Source of the DNA: Candidatus Staskawiczbacteria bacterium
GTDB lineage: Bacteria; Patescibacteriota; Minisyncoccia; Minisyncoccales; Staskawiczbacteraceae
Assembly: GCA_903923535.1 (NCBI GenBank)
Contig: CAIXXY010000046.1
Coordinates: 1-44,340, forward strand
Reading direction: 5' to 3'
DNA length: 44,340 bases
Part shown: piece by piece, positions 1,980-12,125 of the stretch
Numbering within the stretch: the stretch's first letter is position 1
Layout of the letters: every line of letters begins with the position of its first letter
The notes under the pieces: model-generated
Told to the model about the DNA's origin: nothing
The model's input: the letters and a program-made list of their open reading frames with translations, nothing else
The model's database searches: none
Translations under genes and position numbers: made by a program

Positions 1980-4196
1980 TTAATTATTGGGTCTCCTTCT
2001 TAAAAATGTGGGAATTTCCCATTCTTTTTCTTGCGCCATTCTCTTTTTCTCTTGAAGTTCTTCTGCTTTTCTTATTTCTAATCCGCTTCTTCTTATTGTT
2101 TTTTTATTTGATTCAGGAGAAATTTCTATAATTTCCATTCTTCTCTGCTCTATAGCCGGCGCAGTCGGAACCGGAACTTCAAATACCGGAACAAAGGAAA
2201 CCAATTTTTCTTCCTTCGCCACGCCAGAACCTCCGGCGGAGGCGGGCTTCTTGCTTGGTTTTTTAATAGATATATTCTGCTTCTTATTTTTAGGTTTTCT
2301 AAATTTAATTTTTGATTTTTTTTCTTTTTTTACAGCTTTTTTAATCGGGTTTTTAATTTTCTCTATTATAATCGGTTTTACGGATTTTATTTCTTTTATA
2401 GGTTCGTCTTCTTTCGTCTGCCCTCCGGTCATTAAAATTGTAGTTTTTATTTTATTTTTTAACTTGTTATCTTTGGAAATTCCGAATATAATTTTTGCTT
2501 TTGGATTAAGATTGGCTATATGGCTGCTGATTTTTTCTACCTCAAACATCGAAAGATTTTCTCCGCCGGCAATGTTAAATAAGATCTTTTCTGCTTTAAA
2601 ACTGTTATTTTGCAGCAAAGGATTTCTTAAAATCTTCTCGCAAATTTTTTCTACTTTATCCTTGCCTGATTCCTCAATAGTATTTAAAAATGCTGAATTC
2701 CCTCTGCCTTTTAAAATTGTTCTTAGGTCGGCAAAATCAATATTTATAATTCCCGGATTATAAATCAAATCTATCAAGCTTTCTAAAGATTCTATCAAGC
2801 TTTTATTGACAATTGAAAAAGCATTTATGATTGGCGTTGAAGTATCAATAATCTTAAAAATCTTTTCATTGGGAATCACCAAAGAAACATTCAAGGACTG
2901 GCGCAAAGATTTTAATGCATTTTGCGCTATACGCTGTTTATTTTTACCTTCAAACTTAAAGGGCATAGTAAATATGCCGAAAGTAATTCCGCCAAATTCT
3001 CTTGCTGCTTCTGCAAAAACCTGCGTGGCTCCAGACCCCAAACCTCCACCCAATGAAGCTATAAAAATTATAATATCCTGGTCTTGAAATACGCTGCTTA
3101 TTTTTTCTTTAGCTCCCTCAGCAGCTTGTTTTGCCAAATCTACATTAACTCCGGTTCCCAAGCCATGGGTCAGGTCCTCGCCAAACCAAAAATATTTTAT
3201 TCCTGATTTCTTTTTTAAGGCTCTGATATCCGTATCAGCAATGACAAAAGTCGCTTTTTGGAGAGATCTGCCTATTTCAGAAACAATTGACCCCCCGCCT
3301 CCGCCGATTCCAATTACTTTAATCTTTGCTTTAAACAGCATCTCTGCTGAAAATTGTGCAGTTTGAGGCGATATTGAAACTTTTTTTAGCTTAGGCTTTG
3401 CCAAAACTGCAACTTTATGAGACTTAATTGGCCGAATTTTTGGTTTAGTAATTTTTTTTACCCGATTAAATTTTTTCGCTTTTCGCGAAACACCACCTTT
3501 AGTGGATTTAACCTGGTGAATTTTAGCAACCTTAATTTTCTTTACTATATTTTTTTTCGGTTTTATAACTTTCTTTTTTGGTGATTTTTTTGAGATTTTT
3601 TTAATAACGATCTTTCCTCTCCCTCTAGCGAGTTTTGCTTTGCTGCCGGATTTTCTAGGTTTTACTGCAATCTTCTTTTTTGGCTTTATAATCTTCTTAA
3701 TATTTTTTTTTGTCTTATTTTTCTTAATAACTTTTTTTACAATAGATTTTTTACCTTTAATTTTGCTTATGACTTTTTTTGAAGATTTTGTTTTTATGGC
3801 AGGTTTTTTTGTTTTTGCAGCTAAAATCTTTTTCTGTTTTACAGATTTCTTATTCTTATTTACCCGGTTAAATAATTTCGCCTTTCGGGTCGCGAGAGTT
3901 CTCCGCGAAGCGGAAACTCCCGACCTAGGCGAAATTACCGTCTTCTTGCCCGCCCAAGTTTTGCTTCGCAAAATTTTGGCGGGTGAACGGTATTTAACTG
4001 GGTGAATTTTTTTCTTCACCCCCACACCATAACGAGAAATTTTTTTATTACCTTTTTTATTTGCCCCAGCGCCTCGTTTGGTGTGGGGGTAAACTAAAAC
4101 CTTCCTGCCTTTAGCCAACTTTTTCTTTTTAATCGTTATTTTCTTTCCTCGCCTCGCCGAAGCTTTATGCGAAGGCGGGTTCTTTTGCTTTGGCAT
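1980..4196 (-). CDS. divergent FtsZ/tubulin-family GTPase with about 285-residue lysine-rich N-terminal extension
   Basis: 738 residues. Residues 1 to about 285 are low-complexity, basic and KK/IKK-rich, reminiscent of histone H1-like tails. The GTPase domain begins near residue 290 with VIGIGGGGGSIVSEIG (G-box, final N of the family replaced by S). The tubulin signature near residue 384 is GGGLGSG instead of GGGTGTG. The catalytic T7 loop is intact (NIDFADLRTIL, near residue 486). A charged C-terminal linker follows; no conserved FtsZ C-terminal peptide is evident. It is therefore an FtsZ paralogue, likely GTP-binding and polymer-forming, rather than standard FtsZ; a nucleoid-binding role for the basic tail is inference. 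The extension contains several palindromic DNA elements in frame. A TATAAT box at 4211-4216 puts transcription start near 4204, so the mRNA is almost leaderless; no Shine-Dalgarno. Confidence 0.85.
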   Translation of the reverse strand: MPKQKNPPSHKASARRGKKITIKKKKLAKGRKVLVYPHTKRGAGANKKGNKKISRYGVGVKKKIHPVKYRSPAKILRSKTWAGKKTVISPRSGVSASRRTLATRKAKLFNRVNKNKKSVKQKKILAAKTKKPAIKTKSSKKVISKIKGKKSIVKKVIKKNKTKKNIKKIIKPKKKIAVKPRKSGSKAKLARGRGKIVIKKISKKSPKKKVIKPKKNIVKKIKVAKIHQVKSTKGGVSRKAKKFNRVKKITKPKIRPIKSHKVAVLAKPKLKKVSISPQTAQFSAEMLFKAKIKVIGIGGGGGSIVSEIGRSLQKATFVIADTDIRALKKKSGIKYFWFGEDLTHGLGTGVNVDLAKQAAEGAKEKISSVFQDQDIIIFIASLGGGLGSGATQVFAEAAREFGGITFGIFTMPFKFEGKNKQRIAQNALKSLRQSLNVSLVIPNEKIFKIIDTSTPIINAFSIVNKSLIESLESLIDLIYNPGIINIDFADLRTILKGRGNSAFLNTIEESGKDKVEKICEKILRNPLLQNNSFKAEKILFNIAGGENLSMFEVEKISSHIANLNPKAKIIFGISKDNKLKNKIKTTILMTGGQTKEDEPIKEIKSVKPIIIEKIKNPIKKAVKKEKKSKIKFRKPKNKKQNISIKKPSKKPASAGGSGVAKEEKLVSFVPVFEVPVPTAPAIEQRRMEIIEISPESNKKTIRRSGLEIRKAEELQEKKRMAQEKEWEIPTFLRRRPNN
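3460..3517. repeat. three-way-junction palindrome, copy A, inside the FtsZ-like gene
   Basis: Outer arms ACCCGATTAAAT and ATTTAACCTGGT enclose two small hairpins (TTTCGC/GCGAAA and CCACC/GGTGG-like). It is in frame and encodes part of the KKFNRVKK segment. A shorter, more diverged relative of the copies at 3862-4003 and 30056-30113. Confidence 0.7.
3862..4003. repeat. three-way-junction palindrome, copy B, inside the FtsZ-like gene
   Basis: Outer arms ACCCGGTTAAAT and ATTTAACTGGGT. Inside are two long hairpins: one closed by TTTCGCC/GGCGAAA with inner GAGAGTT/AACTC pairing, one closed by ACCGT/ACGGT with inner CCCGCC/GGCGGG and TTTTGC/GCAAAA. The 142 bases stay open in the gene frame and encode a stretch unlike the lysine repeats around it (SPAKIL, KTWAGKKTVISPRSGVSASR). 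Confidence 0.8.
4019..4089. repeat. inverted repeat inside the FtsZ-like coding region
   Basis: CCCCCACACCA at 4019-4029 is complementary to TGGTGTGGGGG at 4079-4089, and ACGAG/CTCGT extends the stem. It lies in frame and encodes YPHTKRGAG and RYGVGVKK. Confidence 0.75.
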
Positions 4197-4349: not shown

Positions 4350-5219
4350 TCAGTTTCCCTCCCTTCTGTCCTTAGGTTGCTTACTTTCAGTAACAACTGT
4401 GACATTCTCGCCGGATTTCTGGCATGCAGCGGCTTGCATTGCCGCCATGAGGCGATCCCACCCGACTTTGGCGCTCCACACGACATTGTTCTTGGCGACG
4501 TCTTCGGCCACTGCCGGGTCATCCTGGCGCCACTCGTCGATTGGCAGGCGCACCAGAGACACGACGGGAATCTCCAGTTTTTCCGTTTCCATGACCTGTC
4601 CATTGGCCAGCCTGAATTCTCCGGGATTATAGACCGAATCTACGGTCAATGAACGGTTCAGGAAACAGACGATAGCCATAACCTTGGCTTTCGCCAAAAG
4701 GATGTTGCCGACGAGCTCGTGGGTTGTCGAGAAGTTATTGCACACGTCCTCGGCAACAACTACGCGATCGCCTTCTTCGACGTTGTGTCTCGAGAAGCGG
4801 AGCTCCGCCTTCTCTTTCGACGAAGGCGTTTCGGCTTCGGTAACCTTCTTCTCTGCCTTGATGGCATCGACGTCGAAGTGAAAAGCGAGTGTCCTAGCAA
4901 GGTCATAACCGCCGATCGGCGCTCCGCAGAACACGAGGTCCTGCATTTCAAAGCCCGGCAGTTCGGACAACTTTTCGCCCAGACACCTGCCAAAATGCAT
5001 GAGCACGTTGGAATGCGGCTCAGCCTTGACAAAGTTGGCGTAGACGTCGCCTACGTACTGCAGCTTCGTCTTACCATCCGGCCCCACATATTTGCCGGCG
5101 TAGCCGACAAGAGGCCCGATACGATGGCCATCCAGTCCCTTCGGGCAGGTATAGTATCCGTTGCACCGCCGGAGGGTTTCCAAATGGTCACCAGGAGCGA
5201 TTTCAATTCTCTGACGCAT
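4350..5219 (-). CDS. pyrE: orotate phosphoribosyltransferase-like protein
   Basis: 289 residues. The phosphoribosyltransferase PRPP loop is VVVAEDVCNNFSTTHELVG (around residue 155; the usual loop is VVxVEDVxTTGxS), with the two acidic residues kept and the glycine-rich part altered. The segment LVFCGAPIGGYDLARTLAFHF resembles the substrate-binding loop of OPRTases (G-x-P-x-G-G). OPRTase converts orotate and PRPP to OMP. Assignment rests on this motif plus its partner: pyrF, encoding the next enzyme, lies 29 bases upstream in the same operon. Start ATG 5219 follows a purine-rich AGGAAAGGAAAG. It is longer than typical PyrE (about 210) and much more GC-rich than its surroundings, suggesting transfer. 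Another phosphoribosyltransferase specificity cannot be excluded. Confidence 0.7.
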   Translation of the reverse strand: MRQRIEIAPGDHLETLRRCNGYYTCPKGLDGHRIGPLVGYAGKYVGPDGKTKLQYVGDVYANFVKAEPHSNVLMHFGRCLGEKLSELPGFEMQDLVFCGAPIGGYDLARTLAFHFDVDAIKAEKKVTEAETPSSKEKAELRFSRHNVEEGDRVVVAEDVCNNFSTTHELVGNILLAKAKVMAIVCFLNRSLTVDSVYNPGEFRLANGQVMETEKLEIPVVSLVRLPIDEWRQDDPAVAEDVAKNNVVWSAKVGWDRLMAAMQAAACQKSGENVTVVTESKQPKDRREGN

Positions 5220-5248
5220 ACTCTCTCTTTCCTTTCCTTGTTGAATTT

Positions 5249-5965
5249 CTATTCCATCGCGGTCTGGATTTCATCAGCGATGCGCTTGGCAGCGTCTGCG
5301 GGCGTGCCAACTTCTTGCGGGGGTTTGGTGATCGGCCGGCCGATTACCAGGGCCGTAGCCCCGGCTTTGATGGCTTCTGCAGGCGTCATGATGCGCTTCT
5401 GGTCGCCGGCGGACGCCCATTCGGGACGTACGCCCGGCGTGATTTTCATCAGCCCGGCGAGTTCTTTCTGTTTCCCGAGAAGCTCGAGCTCCTGCGGCGA
5501 ACAGATGATACCGTCACAACCGGCCAGTTTGGCGTCGCGCGCTAGTTGCAAGACCTTGGCCTTGCTCGGCCCGCCGAAAATCAGATGCGCATTGTTCTCT
5601 TCCAACGACGTGAGGACGGTCACGGCTAAGACAAGCGACTGCTCCTTGTTGGTGACAGCAGCCATCATTGCCTCGATACCCGCCGAAGCGTGAACATTGA
5701 ACATCTTCACATTCAGACCTGCCACTGCTTTGGCCGCGCCCGCAACCGTGTTAGGAATATCGTCGAACTTGCCGTCGTAGAAAACCTGCCCGCCGGCCGA
5801 GTGGATAAACTCGACGACGTCCGGGCCTCCCACGGCCGTGAGCAGCTCAAGTCCGACTTTGAAACAACCCACGTGCGGAGCAAGGCTTTCCACAAGGGAT
5901 TTGGCCTTGTCCAGATTGTCCACATCCAAAGCGACAATGATTCGCTCCTTCGGTTCAACTTGCAT
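5249..5965 (-). CDS. pyrF: orotidine 5'-phosphate decarboxylase
   Basis: Decarboxylates OMP to UMP, the last step of de novo pyrimidine synthesis. The 238-residue protein has the TIM-barrel start RIIVALDVDN, the catalytic tetrad segment DGKFDDIPNTV (D64, K66, D69; family DxKxxDI), and the phosphate-binding end TPGVRPEW ... ATALVIGRPIT (G-R-P-I). ATG at 5965 was chosen because GGAAGGAG lies seven bases upstream; a GTG two codons earlier lacks spacing. It heads a two-gene operon with the pyrE-like gene, from a promoter at 6052-6080 to a terminator at 4268-4309. Composition is GC-rich, with synonymous choices unlike the ribosomal genes of the window. Other pyr genes are not in the window. Confidence 0.93.
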   Translation of the reverse strand: MQVEPKERIIVALDVDNLDKAKSLVESLAPHVGCFKVGLELLTAVGGPDVVEFIHSAGGQVFYDGKFDDIPNTVAGAAKAVAGLNVKMFNVHASAGIEAMMAAVTNKEQSLVLAVTVLTSLEENNAHLIFGGPSKAKVLQLARDAKLAGCDGIICSPQELELLGKQKELAGLMKITPGVRPEWASAGDQKRIMTPAEAIKAGATALVIGRPITKPPQEVGTPADAAKRIADEIQTAME

Positions 5966-6619: not shown

Positions 6620-6697
6620 TACAAAACTATGCCAAATTGTCAACGAACTGCCATCAGTTTATACTCATAGAAGCAGTAAAACTAATACTTTCAATTA

Positions 6698-6726
6698 TCC
6701 TAACAACAAAACGATTTTACGTCAAC
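6698..6726 (-). promoter_or_regulatory. promoter of the tRNA-like/ncRNA cassette
   Basis: Minus strand -35 TTGACG, 17-base spacer ending TTTTGTTGT, -10 TAGGAT. The -35 starts on the last base of the GGTGAAGAGT hairpin arm. The downstream leader shares GCAGTTCGTT and CAATTTG with the pyrF leader. Confidence 0.7.
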
Positions 6727-6810
6727 TCTTCACCTTCGTGCATGAAATAAGACAGATTTACAAAATATTTTTATTGCGCATATTAATTTATCCAAAGGTG
6801 AAGAGTCAAT
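6721..6810. repeat. long inverted repeat, ACTCTTCACC family
   Basis: GTCAACTCTTCACCTT at the left and AAGGTGAAGAGTCAAT at the right enclose about 60 AT-rich bases. Same arms at 12163-12199 and 23511-23613. Confidence 0.85.
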
Positions 6811-6816
6811 TAGCAA

Positions 6817-6853
6817 ACAAAAAGCCCGCAGATTCCATTTGGAACTGCGGACT
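6817..6853 (-). terminator. Rho-independent terminator of the 68-residue gene
   Basis: Minus strand GTCCGCAGTTCC/GGAATCTGCGGGC hairpin followed by TTTTTGTTTG, ten bases past the stop codon. Confidence 0.85.
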
Positions 6854-6862
6854 TGTTTTATT

Positions 6863-7069
6863 TTATGCTTTGACTAGCTGATATTCTGACCCGTGATGAA
6901 TTAATTTATATTTGTATCCCATATGGTCTTCAAATATAGCTGACCCATAATTGAACGCTTCATCAAAAAACACTTTTGACTCTTGCGCATTAATACGATA
7001 CAAATATCTTATTCCTTCACTAACACTCTCATCATGCGATACAGTATGGCCGTTGATTGTTACTTTCAT
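6863..7069 (-). CDS. hypothetical protein, 68 residues
   Basis: Not recognised. MKVTINGHTVSHDESVS then a predicted beta-rich soluble fold (KVFFDEAFNYGSAIFEDHMG, YKYKLIHHGSEYQLVKA). No signal peptide, membrane segment or cysteine. The immediate terminator at 6817-6853 supports it being a real gene. No Shine-Dalgarno; the start codon lies at the end of the hairpin region 7071-7151, as for several other genes here. Confidence 0.6.
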   Translation of the reverse strand: MKVTINGHTVSHDESVSEGIRYLYRINAQESKVFFDEAFNYGSAIFEDHMGYKYKLIHHGSEYQLVKA

Positions 7070-7070
7070 A

Positions 7071-7151
7071 ATTATGAGCGAAGCGAATACCCCGCCCTCT
7101 ATGCTAGTGTAAAATTCAATAGCTTAGAGGGCGAAGTAAGTCTCGCTATCG
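7071..7151. repeat. two-hairpin 5' leader of the 68-residue gene
   Basis: On the minus strand: GAAGTAAG/CTTACTTC hairpin, then GCCCTCTA/TAGAGGGC hairpin, then GGGGTATTCGCTTCGCTC and the start region. The TAGAGGGCGGGG arm and the TTCGCTTCGCTC tail recur at 35545-35652 and in the leaders of other genes. Confidence 0.7.
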
Positions 7152-7370
7152 CTAGCTTACTTCTATAATTTTGTTCCTTGATGAATAGCCGGAAATAATT
7201 TTTATTCTTGAAGAGGCTGTTTTAAAATATACTGCCAAAGCATTCTTAATCGCCTCATTTGCTTTACCTTTAACCGGAGGCTCTTTTACAGAAACAATAT
7301 AATTATTTTCATCTATACGCTCTACGTTTTCTTCTTTAGAATTTGGCTTTGCTTTTACAAAAATCTTCAC
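7152..7370 (-). CDS. DUF167 (YggU-type) family protein
   Basis: 72 residues, the normal size of this small alpha/beta family of unknown function. Family features visible: MKIFVKAKPNSKEENVE (V-K-x-P-x-x), the strand NYIVSVKEPPVKGKANEAIKNALA (the conserved P-P-V-x-G-K-A-N-x-A signature), and RIKIISGYSSRNKIIEV (I-x-x-G-x-x-S-R-x-K). The adjacent spacer 7375-7511 is a CTAATTNNN hairpin. Confidence 0.9.
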   Translation of the reverse strand: MKIFVKAKPNSKEENVERIDENNYIVSVKEPPVKGKANEAIKNALAVYFKTASSRIKIISGYSSRNKIIEVS

Positions 7371-7374
7371 GATA

Positions 7375-7511
7375 AATGTCTAATTAACCTAATTATTCTA
7401 ATTGACCTAATCAAATGCAAAGGTCTAAATTCCAATATCTAAAACGATTTTAGAAATTGAGCATTAGGCATTATTTAGAATAATTAGAGCAATTAGAATA
7501 ATTAGAATAAT
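7375..7511. repeat. intergenic imperfect hairpin of CTAATTNNN words
   Basis: Left arm CTAATTAAC, CTAATTATT, CTAATTGAC; right arm three or four NNNAATTAG words. Closely similar to 703-851 and 21160-21323. Confidence 0.75.
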
Positions 7512-8891
7512 TTATATTATTATGGCTTCTCCTTTGCCGATTAAAGCCACTTCCCTGCCCTGGACTAAAATTGCCTGCTCGTCTGTTAAAATTTTTAATT
7601 TCTTTGCTCTTTTTCTAGGACTTTTAATTTGCTGTCTTATAATTTCTACATCTTCTGGCTGATAATGAACAAAAATATCAAATGGCACAAGATTTAAACC
7701 CTTTAAGTTTCTTAAACCAACCATATTTTTATTTCCATATTCTTCTCGTAGCCAGCCAGCTGTTTTAATAGTGCGGCCGGCCACTATGCTTCCTGCAGAA
7801 GACCCAATATAAACTTTTCCTTCTTTTAATAATTTTCTTATTACTTTTTCAAAATTACATTTTCTCATTGCATTTAATAAATAAAAAGTATTTCCCCCTT
7901 CAACGTAAATAATATCTTTTAATTCCAGCAGTTTCATCAACTCAGATTCTTTTTTGCCTTCAATATCAACTTCTTCAACATTAAAACCCACTTCTTCTTT
8001 CATAGTAATCCAATCTTTTCTGACATATTCTAAATTTTCCTCTGGTTTTGCGGCAGTTGTTATAAAAGCCACTGTTACGTCATATGCCGGTTTTTGCAGC
8101 AATTTTATTATTTCATCTTTCATCTGCATGCCATTTGAAGTCAAAAGCAGGGTTTTTGCCATGTTGTGCCTTATAATATTCCTGATAAGTCCTACTAAAT
8201 AATAAATAAGTGCCAAAAATATCAGCAATCCCCCAACTGCCCCAACCGCGCCTATTCCAAATGGTGTAAGAAAAAATTCCAATACTGATGTTTTAAAAAA
8301 TGTTACTTTTAAATATGGCAGCTGCCAATAAATATTTAAAATAGATTGGATATCAAAAAATTCTTTTTTTCCAACAGCCAAAACATATTTTCCTTTATCC
8401 TCCGAAATTTTGCCTTCGGGCAAAACTTGGGGGGACGAGTTATCTTTGGAGTAAATTTCAATTTTGTATTTTCCGGCAGGAACCTGCTGGTCTAATTCTG
8501 GGCCTTTAAAATAGTAATCCCTGCCGAACGGCTCATAAAAATTATGCCATTCAAATGAAGTGCCATCAAGAGAATATAATTTTTTCCATTGAATGTCTCC
8601 GCCAGAGGCGGATCCGCCTTGGGCGGAAAAAACATCTGCAGAATATCTGCCATCCTTGTTTTCAGGATTTGGGACCAAAAGATTAAGATACAATTCAAAA
8701 TCTTTACTTGAATCAATAAAATAATCGCGGGGCGTTCCTTTTAATTCGTCATAAAATGCCTGAGAAAGCTCTGGATCGCTTATCTGTATATCCCCTGTTT
8801 GCAAATAAATAATTCTTGGCTGATGGGCTGAGGCATTGCCAGCAAATGCCAAAAAAAATATAACAAAAATGGAAAAATATTTTTTATTCAT
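7512..8891 (-). CDS. signal-anchored extracytoplasmic domain fused to a peptidase S51 domain
   Basis: 459 residues. Residues 1-22 are a signal peptide (IFVIFFLAFAGNASA then HQPR). Residues 23 to about 200 form an extracytoplasmic beta-rich domain found in Parcubacteria-type proteins (HQPRIIYLQTGDIQISDPE...). A transmembrane helix lies at about 208-236. The cytoplasmic remainder starts MAKTLLLTSNG and has the S51 dipeptidase E/cyanophycinase fold, with IYVEGGNTFYLL and the nucleophile motif GSSAGS near residue 365. Free-standing S51 peptidases begin just like residue 244 onward, so this looks like a fusion, or an in-frame merger of two genes. Substrate unknown. The extracytoplasmic part carries an SAQGGSASGG insert encoded by a palindrome at 8597-8628. 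Confidence 0.8.
   Translation of the reverse strand: MNKKYFSIFVIFFLAFAGNASAHQPRIIYLQTGDIQISDPELSQAFYDELKGTPRDYFIDSSKDFELYLNLLVPNPENKDGRYSADVFSAQGGSASGGDIQWKKLYSLDGTSFEWHNFYEPFGRDYYFKGPELDQQVPAGKYKIEIYSKDNSSPQVLPEGKISEDKGKYVLAVGKKEFFDIQSILNIYWQLPYLKVTFFKTSVLEFFLTPFGIGAVGAVGGLLIFLALIYYLVGLIRNIIRHNMAKTLLLTSNGMQMKDEIIKLLQKPAYDVTVAFITTAAKPEENLEYVRKDWITMKEEVGFNVEEVDIEGKKESELMKLLELKDIIYVEGGNTFYLLNAMRKCNFEKVIRKLLKEGKVYIGSSAGSIVAGRTIKTAGWLREEYGNKNMVGLRNLKGLNLVPFDIFVHYQPEDVEIIRQQIKSPRKRAKKLKILTDEQAILVQGREVALIGKGEAIII
8597..8628. repeat. TCCGCC/GGCGGA palindrome inside the S51 fusion gene
   Basis: TCCGCCAGAGGCGGA next to TCCGCCTTGGGCGGA, two imperfect palindromes head to tail, in frame, encoding SAQGGSASGG. 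A related CCTCCGGCGGAGG lies in the FtsZ-like gene near 2230-2243. Confidence 0.7.
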
Positions 8892-8907
8892 TTATTTTGA
8901 GTATGGC

Positions 8908-8964
8908 GAGGTCGGACCTCTCCATATTGAATGCGTATTTAAAAGTTTTTAGAGGTCCGACCTC
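8908..8964. repeat. inverted repeat overlapping the stop of the MBL-fold gene
   Basis: GAGGTCGGACCTCT at 8908-8921 is complementary to AGAGGTCCGACCTC at 8951-8964, one mismatch in 14. The right arm contains part of the TGA stop at 8963-8965. Possible terminator without a T-run. Confidence 0.8.
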
Positions 8965-9730
8965 ATCGCTCGTGGCTGCAACTGCAATAATCGCAATCTA
9001 AACCGCATTCACAGCAATTAAAACAAAGATAAGGGCGACATTTGCATTTGTCTTGTTGCCTCATTTGCCTGCCACATTTTTTGCATGTTACAGCAATTTT
9101 TGGTTCTCTTGCTTTTAATATATGGATAGTTTCTTCTTCGGCTGATGCCTCTCTTTTATTTATTTTATACATTCCGCCATGGCCGGGAATTATCCAATCA
9201 GCTATTTTTAAAATCATATGCCTGCTTTCTTTCAATCTCTGAGGATTTGAAGCAAAAGCATCATCATGCGGATCTCGAGGATAATTTTCTTTCCAAAAAA
9301 CATCTCCGCATATTGCAACAACACCATCTCTTGTGGTCACAAAAAGAGTTATGCTTGAATAATCATGCCCCGGAGTATGCAAAACCTGGATGTTCGGAGT
9401 AAAATTCTCAGGCCAAGTTTCAACTGTCTGCTTGTCCCATAAGCCATAATATTCTAAAGTCTTAGCTCGAGGAAACATTCCAACATTTCTATAATGGTCA
9501 ATATGCGAATGAGTAATACAGACAACGTCAACATCTTGGACTGTTAAATTTTCTTTTTCTAAGGCATCAATCAGAACCTGTTGGCTTTCCATAATCCCGG
9601 GATCAACTACCATAACCAAATCTCCATCTCTTACCAAAGTAACAGTCGGCTGGGTCTTTTCTTCCCCTTCTTCAGCCACAGAATCAGCATTTGTATAACC
9701 CTCAACTAAAATTTTAACTTCAGCTGTCAT
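8963..9730 (-). CDS. metallo-beta-lactamase-fold hydrolase with Cys-rich zinc-ribbon-like tail
   Basis: 255 residues. The dinuclear metal site is visible: HSHIDH at 74-79, H122 in HTPGHDYSS, D143 in CGDVFW, H184 in PGHGG. This fold includes glyoxalase II-like and MBLAC1-like hydrolases; the substrate cannot be read from sequence. Residues 215-255 add eleven cysteines (CKKCG ... CKCRPYLCFNCCECGLDCDYC, split here as two pieces) and a final CSH, compatible with two zinc sites. The start ATG 9730 precedes a 51-residue basic ORF; no Shine-Dalgarno. Confidence 0.85.
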   Translation of the reverse strand: MTAEVKILVEGYTNADSVAEEGEEKTQPTVTLVRDGDLVMVVDPGIMESQQVLIDALEKENLTVQDVDVVCITHSHIDHYRNVGMFPRAKTLEYYGLWDKQTVETWPENFTPNIQVLHTPGHDYSSITLFVTTRDGVVAICGDVFWKENYPRDPHDDAFASNPQRLKESRHMILKIADWIIPGHGGMYKINKREASAEEETIHILKAREPKIAVTCKKCGRQMRQQDKCKCRPYLCFNCCECGLDCDYCSCSHER

Positions 9731-9744
9731 AATATTCTTGCCGA

Positions 9745-9900
9745 TTAATCTTTTTTACCTCTCTTGCTTTTGTTTTTATTCCTGTTATTTATGTGCTCTA
9801 ATCTGGTGGCATTGCCCCAAAATCTGTTGACTGATTTGTTTTGCAACGCTTTATATCTTGCCTTGCCTTTTTGTATATTCCTAGAAATATATTTTTGCAT
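9745..9900 (-). CDS. small basic hypothetical protein, 51 residues
   Basis: Too short for most ORF callers. Begins MQKYISRNIQKGKARYKA and ends NKNKSKRGKKD, strongly basic, no cysteine or hydrophobic segment. It lies 14 bases upstream of the MBL-fold gene in the same direction. No close family recognised; a nucleic-acid-binding role would be only a guess from charge. Coding status is uncertain because the ORF is short and lacks a Shine-Dalgarno. Confidence 0.4.
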   Translation of the reverse strand: MQKYISRNIQKGKARYKALQNKSVNRFWGNATRLEHINNRNKNKSKRGKKD

Positions 9901-9970: not shown

Positions 9971-10516
9971 TTAATTTAAAATCCAAAGAAAAAGATTCAA
10001 AACTCCTGCAAATGAAACCCATAAAATATATGGAATTAATAATAATGATGCAGTTTTAGAAATTCTATAAAAATTTATGATTGTAAATATTATTGCAAAC
10101 CAAAGCATCAGCAATTCAAAAAAAGCAGCACCAGGAGAGTGCATGCCGAAAAATATTACTGACCATAAAATATTAAGAACAAGCTGTATTGCAAAAATTA
10201 CAATAATATTTGCCTTCTGCCAAGAACCCAATAAAAATTTCTGTGATAATGGATTCCATATATTCGCCTTTTTAGAATCAAATTTGTTTTTTGGCTTCCA
10301 TTTCTTTGACCAAACCAAATATAAAGAAACTCCCATTAGAATAAACAGAGTTGTCCATACTGGGCCAAAAATCCAATTTGGCGGGCTGAAAGCTGGCTTA
10401 TTCAAATTTTTGTACCAGCTATTTATTTCAGGCATCGTAAAAATAGAGCCGACAAATCCAGCTACTTCGCAGATTATTATGCTTATTAAAAGTTTTAATA
10501 GATCATTATACTTCAT
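9971..10516 (-). CDS. tspO: TspO/MBR family membrane protein
   Basis: 181 residues, five predicted membrane helices, the family architecture. Signature residues: WYKNLNKPAFSPPNWIFGPVWT (W-x-x-L-x-K-P-x-x-x-P-P after helix 1) and LNILWSVIFFG in helix 3. TspO proteins bind porphyrins and related ligands; their role in bacteria is regulatory or in tetrapyrrole handling. The loop between helices 2 and 3 is longer than usual (WKPKNKFDSKKANIWNPLSQ). Its ATG overlaps the TGA of a 54-residue upstream ORF (ATGA), suggesting translational coupling. Confidence 0.9.
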   Translation of the reverse strand: MKYNDLLKLLISIIICEVAGFVGSIFTMPEINSWYKNLNKPAFSPPNWIFGPVWTTLFILMGVSLYLVWSKKWKPKNKFDSKKANIWNPLSQKFLLGSWQKANIIVIFAIQLVLNILWSVIFFGMHSPGAAFFELLMLWFAIIFTIINFYRISKTASLLLIPYILWVSFAGVLNLFLWILN

Positions 10517-10762: not shown

Positions 10763-11503
10763 TTATTTTATAACAATTGGAGCTAACATAGTATCCGCTT
10801 TCCAATATTGGCAATCCGGCGGTGGGTTCATAGGAATAACTTCCCCATTGATATTTTCTTTTTTAAATCCAGCATCAATAAGTTTTTGCAGATGAACGGG
10901 ATGATAAGTGTTTATTTCATCGGAATAATAAGTAAAAATACCGCCTGACTTCAGTTTTTTGAATGCAGTTCTAAAAAATCCGAAATGATTTTTATGAATT
11001 TCCAATTCAGATAAAGGATAAGTATCAAAAAGAATTCCGTCAACGCTTTCGTCTGGAACTTGATCAATAACTTCTTCCCACAAACCCTCTAAAACCTCAA
11101 CAGGATATTTAGCGCTTTTTGCGAATTCGCGCGCTTTCTCTGCAACTTCATGATTAGCCTCAACGATAATATGCTTTTGAATATCAGCATTTTGAATAAA
11201 ACTAGCGGAAATTCCCATACCATAACCAAGTTCCAGAATAATGCCGCCTTTAGAAGTTGCTATTTTAGCAAGCTCTTTCATATATGGCGTTTCCCAATCT
11301 TCCATAACTGGATGACCAAAAATTTTCAAAGTATGTTCGTCAAAAATTGCCGGAGCCTGTTTCCATGCCTGTTCGTCTTTAAAACCTATATCAACCCGAG
11401 TTTTGTGGGTTACATCACGAATATCTCCCCATGGCGGTGGCGGTGGATCAAAATCTTCATCTTTTGACAAGTGGTTTTTAGTGTTTGTTTTTATAAAATC
11501 CAT
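10763..11503 (-). CDS. SAM-dependent methyltransferase of the guanidinoacetate N-methyltransferase type
   Basis: 246 residues. The order of motifs follows animal GAMT, the enzyme that makes creatine: AWKQAP (W47) near the N-terminus, PVMEDWETPYM at 66-75 with the acceptor-binding Glu71, the SAM glycine motif ILELGYGMGISAS at 89-101, GLWEEV, then ILFDTYPLSE with Asp160 (the second guanidino-binding acid), LKSGGIFTYYSDE, AGFKKENINGEVI and PPPDCQYW. Both catalytic acids and the WETPYM segment are retained. The related RMT2/arginine delta-methyltransferase group shares part of this pattern, so the acceptor could be another guanidine. An N-terminal FDPPPPPWG stretch is extra. No arginine:glycine amidinotransferase is in the window. 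Confidence 0.8.
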   Translation of the reverse strand: MDFIKTNTKNHLSKDEDFDPPPPPWGDIRDVTHKTRVDIGFKDEQAWKQAPAIFDEHTLKIFGHPVMEDWETPYMKELAKIATSKGGIILELGYGMGISASFIQNADIQKHIIVEANHEVAEKAREFAKSAKYPVEVLEGLWEEVIDQVPDESVDGILFDTYPLSELEIHKNHFGFFRTAFKKLKSGGIFTYYSDEINTYHPVHLQKLIDAGFKKENINGEVIPMNPPPDCQYWKADTMLAPIVIK

Positions 11504-11651
11504 ATATCTTTAATGCTTATTATTAAAAAAAATTTTACAAAAAATGTGGGCGATGAAGGAATCGGACAGTTGCCCGAAGGCATCACCTTCTCGTTTCGCT
11601 CGTCGCGATTCGGGAAGTCTCGCTTCGCGAGACGACCTATTGTCTTACTTG

Positions 11652-11760
11652 CCCCGCACTAAAATTTGGGTGTGGGCGTGGAAGGAATCGGACCTTCGAC
11701 CTCTGTCTTATCAGGACAGCGTTCTACCACTGAACTACACGCCCAAATTTTAGTGCGGGG
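11652..11760. repeat. 19-bp perfect inverted repeat framing tRNA-Ile
   Basis: CCCCGCACTAAAATTTGGG at 11652-11670 is the exact reverse complement of 11742-11760; the tRNA-Ile lies between, sharing the last bases of the right arm. It is most of the insert that splits the outer tRNA copy in its anticodon loop. Confidence 0.85.
11673..11744 (-). tRNA. tRNA-Ile (anticodon GAT)
   Basis: Complete cloverleaf on the minus strand: acceptor GGGCGTG/CACGCCC with discriminator A, D-arm GTTC/GAAC, anticodon stem CTGTC/GACAG with loop CTGATAA (anticodon GAT), variable loop AGGTC, T-arm GAAGG-TCCGATT-CCTTC. CCA is not encoded. Confidence 0.93.
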
Positions 11761-11798
11761 TCAGGACAGCGTTCTGCCACTGAACTAATCGCCCTTTA

Positions 11799-12125
11799 TC
11801 CTCCTAACTTTTTAATTCCTTTTACCCTCCCAAGTTTTTTTCTGGAAAATTTAGGAGGATAAATAATTTTCCAATGTTCTTTTTATCCAATCCTTACCCC
11901 AGCCTGTTTTGAGAAACTTTTCTCTTTTTGCTGCATCATTTCTGTTGCGGTGTGCTTCATAGTATATCAATATAAATGGTTTTAATTTTTTGGTTGATTC
12001 TACTTTTCCTGAATTGTGCTCTTTAAATCTACTTATCAAATCATTAGTCATTCCTACATAAAAACATTTATATTTTTAACTCTTCAAAATGTAAACATAC
12101 CACATAAATTAAAAAGTTAGGAGGA
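11799..12125. repeat. 19-bp perfect inverted repeats bracketing the GIY-YIG pseudogene
   Basis: TCCTCCTAACTTTTTAATT at 11799-11817 is the exact reverse complement of 12107-12125. The pseudogene start codon (12105) is one base inside the right arm. Looks like the ends of a small mobile or formerly mobile unit, directly beside the broken tRNA. Confidence 0.8.
11851..12105 (-). pseudogene. GIY-YIG endonuclease gene with premature stop
   Basis: Reading from ATG 12105 gives MWYVYILKS, a TAA at 12078-12076, then in the same frame KYKCFYVGMTNDLISRFKEHN and on to WGKDWIKRTLENYLSS. This is a typical small UPF0213-type GIY-YIG protein: the GIY part (YVYIL) and YIG part (FYVGMTNDL) are both present but split by the stop at codon 10. 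An internal ATG at 12051 would give only a 66-residue product lacking both motifs. A promoter lies upstream (12139-12167). Nonsense-inactivated, unless UAA is read through. Confidence 0.85.

Follow-up and report, generated by a model that had tools for sequence, protein, structure and literature searches.

We describe here a gene whose product is, with good confidence, a SAM-dependent guanidine N-methyltransferase, and which belongs to a separate, sporadically distributed prokaryotic subfamily related to guanidinoacetate methyltransferase (GAMT). This subfamily, marked by the acceptor motif FTY(Y/F)SDE, is apparently undescribed, and we found no account of it in the literature searched. The gene very probably does not serve creatine synthesis. 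As the substrate we tentatively favour agmatine or a polyamine derived from it, a proposal in which we hold slightly more doubt than belief and which is made specifically for the SpeD-linked genomes and for those that produce agmatine.

Homology, predicted fold and acceptor site

Within the 44,340-nt stretch of DNA analysed (hereafter, the window), the reading frame runs intact from ATG to stop over 246 codons, from 11503 to 10763 on the minus strand, and the plus strand carries five stops across 10763-11503 (Table 1). The gene is present in a single copy in its genome, which measures about 0.75 Mb at a completeness of 97%. The GAMT homology claimed in the original prediction is solid and far beyond chance: among PDB sequences, phmmer found human GAMT (3ORH, E=1.1e-50) and rat GAMT (E=2.3e-50), and all non-GAMT matches had E >= 0.036. 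Pfam gave generic methyltransferase domains alone, below or at their cut-offs, and NCBIfam gave nothing specific. The predicted structure led to the same enzyme, in that an AlphaFold2 model built on an alignment of 43 relatives (pLDDT 92, pTM 0.86) had human and rat GAMT as its closest PDB folds, with 3ORH the best Foldseek match (TM 0.80/0.86, rmsd 1.9, 42% identity) and spermidine synthases the second structural neighbours (TM 0.52-0.59).

All of the motifs that had been read from the sequence (W47, PVMEDWETPYM, ELGYGMGISAS, FDTYPLSE and PPPDCQYW) are there, and both acids that hold the guanidinium group are kept, Glu71 in all but one of the 30 core relatives and in 61/61 phage homologues, and Asp160 in 30/30 core relatives; among the viral relatives examined, the Glu and Asp occur together in 61/61. 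In GAMT, Asp134 is the proton acceptor (PMC12471008). By analogy, Glu71 and Asp160 would hold the guanidinium of the substrate, a nitrogen of which would attack the methyl group of SAM, and Asp160 would accept the proton.

The motif reading overlooked the loss of one segment. The rat/human sequence CNLTSWGELMKSK, which follows strand 5, is missing from the protein, and YYSDE stands in its place; 13 GAMT residues are thus lacking; another alignment might shift the gap slightly, but the segment would be missing either way. Komoto is said to have reported in 2004 that the backbone amides of Leu170 and Thr171, within this segment of rat GAMT, hold the carboxylate of guanidinoacetate. The S-D-E turn found instead is invariant in the 30 core relatives, and His204 and Trp234 are also conserved across this core set; at the positions aligned with Glu196, His204 and Trp234, the human enzyme has Ile, Gln and Tyr. 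Because the element that grips the carboxylate has been lost and a conserved acidic turn is present, what remains of the substrate probably carries either no charge or a positive one.

Table 1. Features of the GAMT-like gene and its surroundings in the window
Feature	Position	Strand	Remarks
Peptidase S51 protein	7512-8891	minus	in the row downstream of the GAMT-like gene
MBL-fold hydrolase with Cys-rich tail	8963-9730	minus	same downstream row
TspO	9971-10516	minus	same downstream row; adjoins the GAMT-like gene
GAMT-like SAM-dependent N-methyltransferase CDS (likely), 246 aa	10763..11503	minus	ORF; phmmer to GAMT 1.1e-50; AlphaFold2 and Foldseek
Ser194-Asp195-Glu196 short turn	10916..10924	minus	in place of a GAMT segment 13 residues longer
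Asp160 codon	11024..11026	minus	counterpart of rat GAMT Asp134, which binds guanidinium and serves as base
SAM-binding motif LELGYGMGISA, residues 90-100	11204..11236	minus	
Glu71 codon	11291..11293	minus	rat GAMT Glu45, guanidinium ligand
Trp47 codon	11363..11365	minus	aligns with a Trp of GAMT; W/Y/F in all 30 core relatives
tRNA-Ile(GAT)	11672..11744	minus	about 170 nt upstream of the GAMT-like gene

Creatine synthesis, phylogeny and the genomic site

Could this gene nevertheless take part in creatine synthesis, as had been suggested? The creatine role is unsupported because the carboxylate segment is deleted, no AGAT is found and the neighbours of the relatives are polyamine decarboxylases and two-component genes. 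The search for AGAT recommended earlier, carried out with an AGAT profile that matched two control genomes at 1e-150 or better, detected no homologue in this genome or in the genomes of 25 S-D-E-type relatives. Pfam family PF02274 had been tried as the AGAT test and was negative everywhere, but it misses or barely scores true amidinotransferases and was replaced by the profile. Two of the three prokaryotic GAMTs that retain the canonical segment, L053 (Okeania sp.) and L055, have an amidinotransferase nearby, which in L055 has L-arginine:glycine amidinotransferase as its best PDB match (3.4e-84). To judge from these AGAT neighbours, the canonical-segment GAMTs appear to act as expected for creatine synthesis. 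We also observed that L053 (1-7000) and L055 (cyanobacterium SBLK, 6950-9780) each combine the canonical GAMT and the AGAT-type amidinotransferase with an EamA-type transporter, a set that looks like a bacterial pathway of the creatine type and clusters with animal GAMT.

In the tree, human GAMT, Okeania, another cyanobacterium and a Pelagibacter bin form a clade without our sequence (support 99; 99.7 in a smaller tree), which is nested among prokaryotic sequences and whose members all carry the canonical segment. Our sequence falls with Kaiserbacteria, Nomurabacteria, Magasanikbacteria and several bins under other labels in a group of eight (support 97, and just 33 in the smaller tree). We had considered excluding it from canonical GAMT by the AU test, but its union with that clade was not rejected (p-AU 0.166, not significant), and membership was therefore judged by site features and context, not by the tree. 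It is improbable, in our view, that the protein is a true GAMT that makes creatine from imported guanidinoacetate, whether for its own cell or for a host: the strong homology, the two acids and a sister relation that the AU test leaves standing would suit this role, whereas the missing 13-residue segment, the divergence from the human residues at Glu196, His204 and Trp234, the AGAT results and the clustering of the segment-bearing GAMTs apart from our sequence all argue against it.

The subfamily was defined by W47, E71, D160, the invariant S194-D195-E196, H204 and W234 in a core of 30 sequences, and our protein has all of these residues. A locus search with the single sequence returned no relatives; an alignment query then gave 115 in contigs from one genome per species and 443 in viral contigs, 80 of each being retained. 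They range over CPR, DPANN archaea, cyanobacteria, Nitrospira, actinobacteria, proteobacteria and marine viral contigs, and since the genome is about 0.75 Mb in size and the named relatives are mostly CPR, the earlier assignment of the DNA to a CPR genome is very likely right. Near our genome the distribution is sporadic, with the gene in 0/11 other genomes of the genus, a strong match in 2/98 related genomes and two more among 335 genomes of the class. In the Nitrospira loci (L070-L078 and L081, including L072), ORFs about 1,900 residues long end in the GAMT-like domain.

The gene is probably a horizontally acquired, stand-alone copy beside tRNA-Ile(GAT), a plausible insertion site for such a gene. 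Its neighbours (TspO, the MBL-fold protein and the tRNA) are uninformative on the substrate, and neither a kinase nor a SpeD gene adjoins it. The tRNA-Ile gene is bordered by 23-nt inverted repeats and looks as if it lay inside a second, interrupted tRNA (11545-11800, minus): on its two sides are a 34-nt piece resembling its own 5′ half (91%) and a 23-nt piece resembling its own 3′ end (91%). Elsewhere in the window (1980-4196, minus), an FtsZ-type protein of 738 aa has its GTPase domain starting only at residue 291, the long N-terminal part being unusual. Might the gene be a passenger that arrived recently beside tRNA-Ile and has no role in its host? Its sporadic distribution, the tRNA-flanking site and the lack of a cognate kinase or SpeD are what one would expect of such a gene, but the intact frame with its family-invariant residues is not, and we regard this as very unlikely.

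Gene neighbourhoods and candidate substrates

What, then, might the substrate of this guanidine N-methyltransferase be? We considered the neighbourhoods of 36 cellular loci of the S-D-E type, which are not all independent of one another. Within 1.5 kb of the GAMT-like gene, two-component genes occur in 20/36 loci, a SpeD homologue in 11/36 and an ODC-type decarboxylase in 3/36, and the two-component share of ORFs falls from 14.4% at 0-1.5 kb to 0.9% at 4.5-7.5 kb. Because SpeD was found in just 28/96 related genomes, mostly in one or two copies, its adjacency at so many loci is not background. One recurring cassette of five genes (L024, L025, L028, L029 and L030) consists of a response regulator, the GAMT-like gene, SpeD, an acetyltransferase-like or unknown protein and a histidine kinase, which is of the HisKA_7TM type in the one scanned. 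A second cassette, which occurs with variations (L063, L064 and L067), combines SpeD, the GAMT-like gene and a membrane protein, with a kinase in L063 and L064 and EamA-type transporters in L063 and L067. In the group to which our gene belongs, a kinase starts 1-20 bp downstream in L020, L022, L023 and L026 and 500 bp downstream in L019, and a membrane sensor domain is common to these five kinases. The closest sequence relative, L019, also has SpeD, transporter-like and deoxyhypusine-synthase-like genes within 5 kb upstream. A remnant of PvlArgDC (PF01862 1.4e-9, truncated) lies directly upstream of the GAMT-like gene in L011 (7266-7451, minus; genome G342). SpeD of phage loci had been entertained as evidence for a link to agmatine and was dropped, as none of the viral loci fetched has SpeD.

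The SpeD neighbours may be either AdoMetDC or arginine decarboxylase. Their scores of 72-78 bits straddle the AdoMetDC cut-off of 75.65, so that they may act as AdoMetDC. Most of those in the five-gene cassette are without the Pro that follows the catalytic HT(W/Y/F) in T. maritima AdoMetDC, and ADCs lose a conserved Pro, according to one report (PMC10407285). These neighbours, together with the ODC-type genes and the spermidine synthases among the structural neighbours, could also indicate an amine-N-methyltransferase of diamines or polyamines, or an aminopropyltransferase for which the adjoining SpeD supplies decarboxylated SAM. We consider this unlikely. No SpeD was found in our genome, and therefore no decarboxylated SAM would be supplied through it; the protein has no Pfam match to the spermidine synthase family above cut-off and a weak NCBIfam aminopropyltransferase match (15.2 bits vs a cut-off of 304); its SAM motif LELGYGMG is GAMT-like; and the guanidinium-holding acids are kept, with amidinotransferases adjoining other clades of the family.

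The last point extends beyond the cellular loci. AGAT-type amidinotransferases, which are also makers of guanidines, adjoin genes elsewhere in the family. In the marine viral contigs L118 and L143, a GAMT-like gene and an amidinotransferase (4986-5537 and 6686-7702) lie about 1.1 kb apart, and the best PDB match of the latter is inosamine-phosphate amidinotransferase (7e-110). Amidinotransferases are also found near L034 and L039, two relatives of the S-(D/N)-E type, which suggests that guanidine compounds are a general theme of the family and that the S-(D/N)-E motif alone does not specify a cationic substrate.

Our genome itself encodes a source of such compounds. On contig C29, apart from the contig of the GAMT-like gene, one operon-like run contains a pyruvoyl arginine decarboxylase (217 bits vs a cut-off of 207), a 1,9-bis(guanidino)-5-aza-nonane synthase (NF002699, 588.9 vs 500) and an agmatinase (219.6 vs 174.3), and contig C40 carries ODC and homospermidine synthase. 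Caldomycin is 1,9-bis(guanidino)-5-azanonane. In Thermus, an agmatine-coupling enzyme turns two agmatines into caldomycin (PMC10981699). Because family models identify the arginine decarboxylase, the caldomycin-type synthase and the agmatinase, agmatine is very probably a native guanidine of this cell, and caldomycin is probably another. The original suggestion that the enzyme methylates host-derived guanidines is better supported than creatine synthesis as to guanidines, but the guanidine probably comes from the cell itself, since it encodes these enzymes. The candidate substrate would thus be agmatine, or a guanidino-polyamine derived from it such as caldomycin, and the product an N-methylated agmatine or guanidopolyamine; the ODC-type decarboxylase at three loci, with the SpeD scores near the AdoMetDC cut-off, suggests putrescine as an alternative to agmatine.

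The kinases admit two further readings. The guanidine chemistry common to GAMT and arginine methyltransferases, together with the kinase genes 1-20 bp downstream in four loci, might point to an arginine or protein-arginine methyltransferase (RMT2-like) that modifies, for example, the adjacent histidine kinase, and methylation of arginine residues had indeed been proposed. We think this quite unlikely, because the protein is far from PRMTs (best phmmer match E=0.31 among PDB sequences), a domain scan found no ankyrin or other protein-binding domain, the decarboxylase neighbours indicate a small molecule, and that type of kinase, with the sensor domain of the sister loci, is missing from our genome, whose two kinases differ in appearance from it on reading. 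Alternatively, the arrangement of the gene with SpeD or ODC-type genes and a histidine kinase suggests that, in the relatives, the membrane kinase would sense the product of guanidine methylation or its precursor. It is doubtful, if conceivable, that enzymes of the subfamily produce an agmatine-type signal, methylated and in some loci also acylated, which is sensed by the co-arranged kinase and regulator, and equally doubtful that this constitutes an arginine-derived cell-cell or host-symbiont system in CPR bacteria, with conserved cassettes such as the five-gene one; for our stand-alone gene, a signalling role is less likely still.

If the agmatine proposal is true, a guanidine-methylation branch would be added to the polyamine metabolism of CPR bacteria. 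The chemistry of these bacteria is almost unexplored, and the gene would offer a cloneable enzyme with defined candidate substrates. The link with histidine kinases in turn makes small-molecule signalling in CPR bacteria testable.

Comparison with known systems

The Thermus caldomycin and agmatine pathway resembles the one encoded in our genome, and hence yields the candidate substrates; guanidine methylation is not described in the abstract of that source (PMC10981699). BlsL (PMC5572114), which N-methylates a guanidine in the biosynthesis of blasticidin S, is alike, by its description, in bacterial guanidine N-methylation and in a distant similarity to GAMT, but is a natural-product enzyme. 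Viral GAMT (K00542) has been reported as an auxiliary metabolic gene of Arctic phages (PMC11360552) and probably shares its superfamily with the 443 viral relatives, which differ from our protein in being shorter, with other acceptor loops and on distant branches.

With GAMT itself (EC 2.1.1.2; human 3ORH, rat 1XCJ), our protein shares the fold, the SAM motif, Trp47, Glu71, Asp160 and the C-terminal PP-x-x-C-x-Y, and it differs in lacking CNLTSWGELMKSK, in the invariant S-D-E, His204 and Trp234, and in a genome with no AGAT detected. The GAMTs of L053 (Okeania), L055 and L057 (from a Pelagibacter bin and cyanobacteria) are of the same family, at about 45% identity to our protein, but they keep the GAMT segment, stand beside an AGAT-type amidinotransferase in two of three cases and form a clade with human GAMT. 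The position of animal GAMT among prokaryotic sequences, beside these cyanobacterial AGAT-linked enzymes, bears on the origin of the animal creatine pathway.
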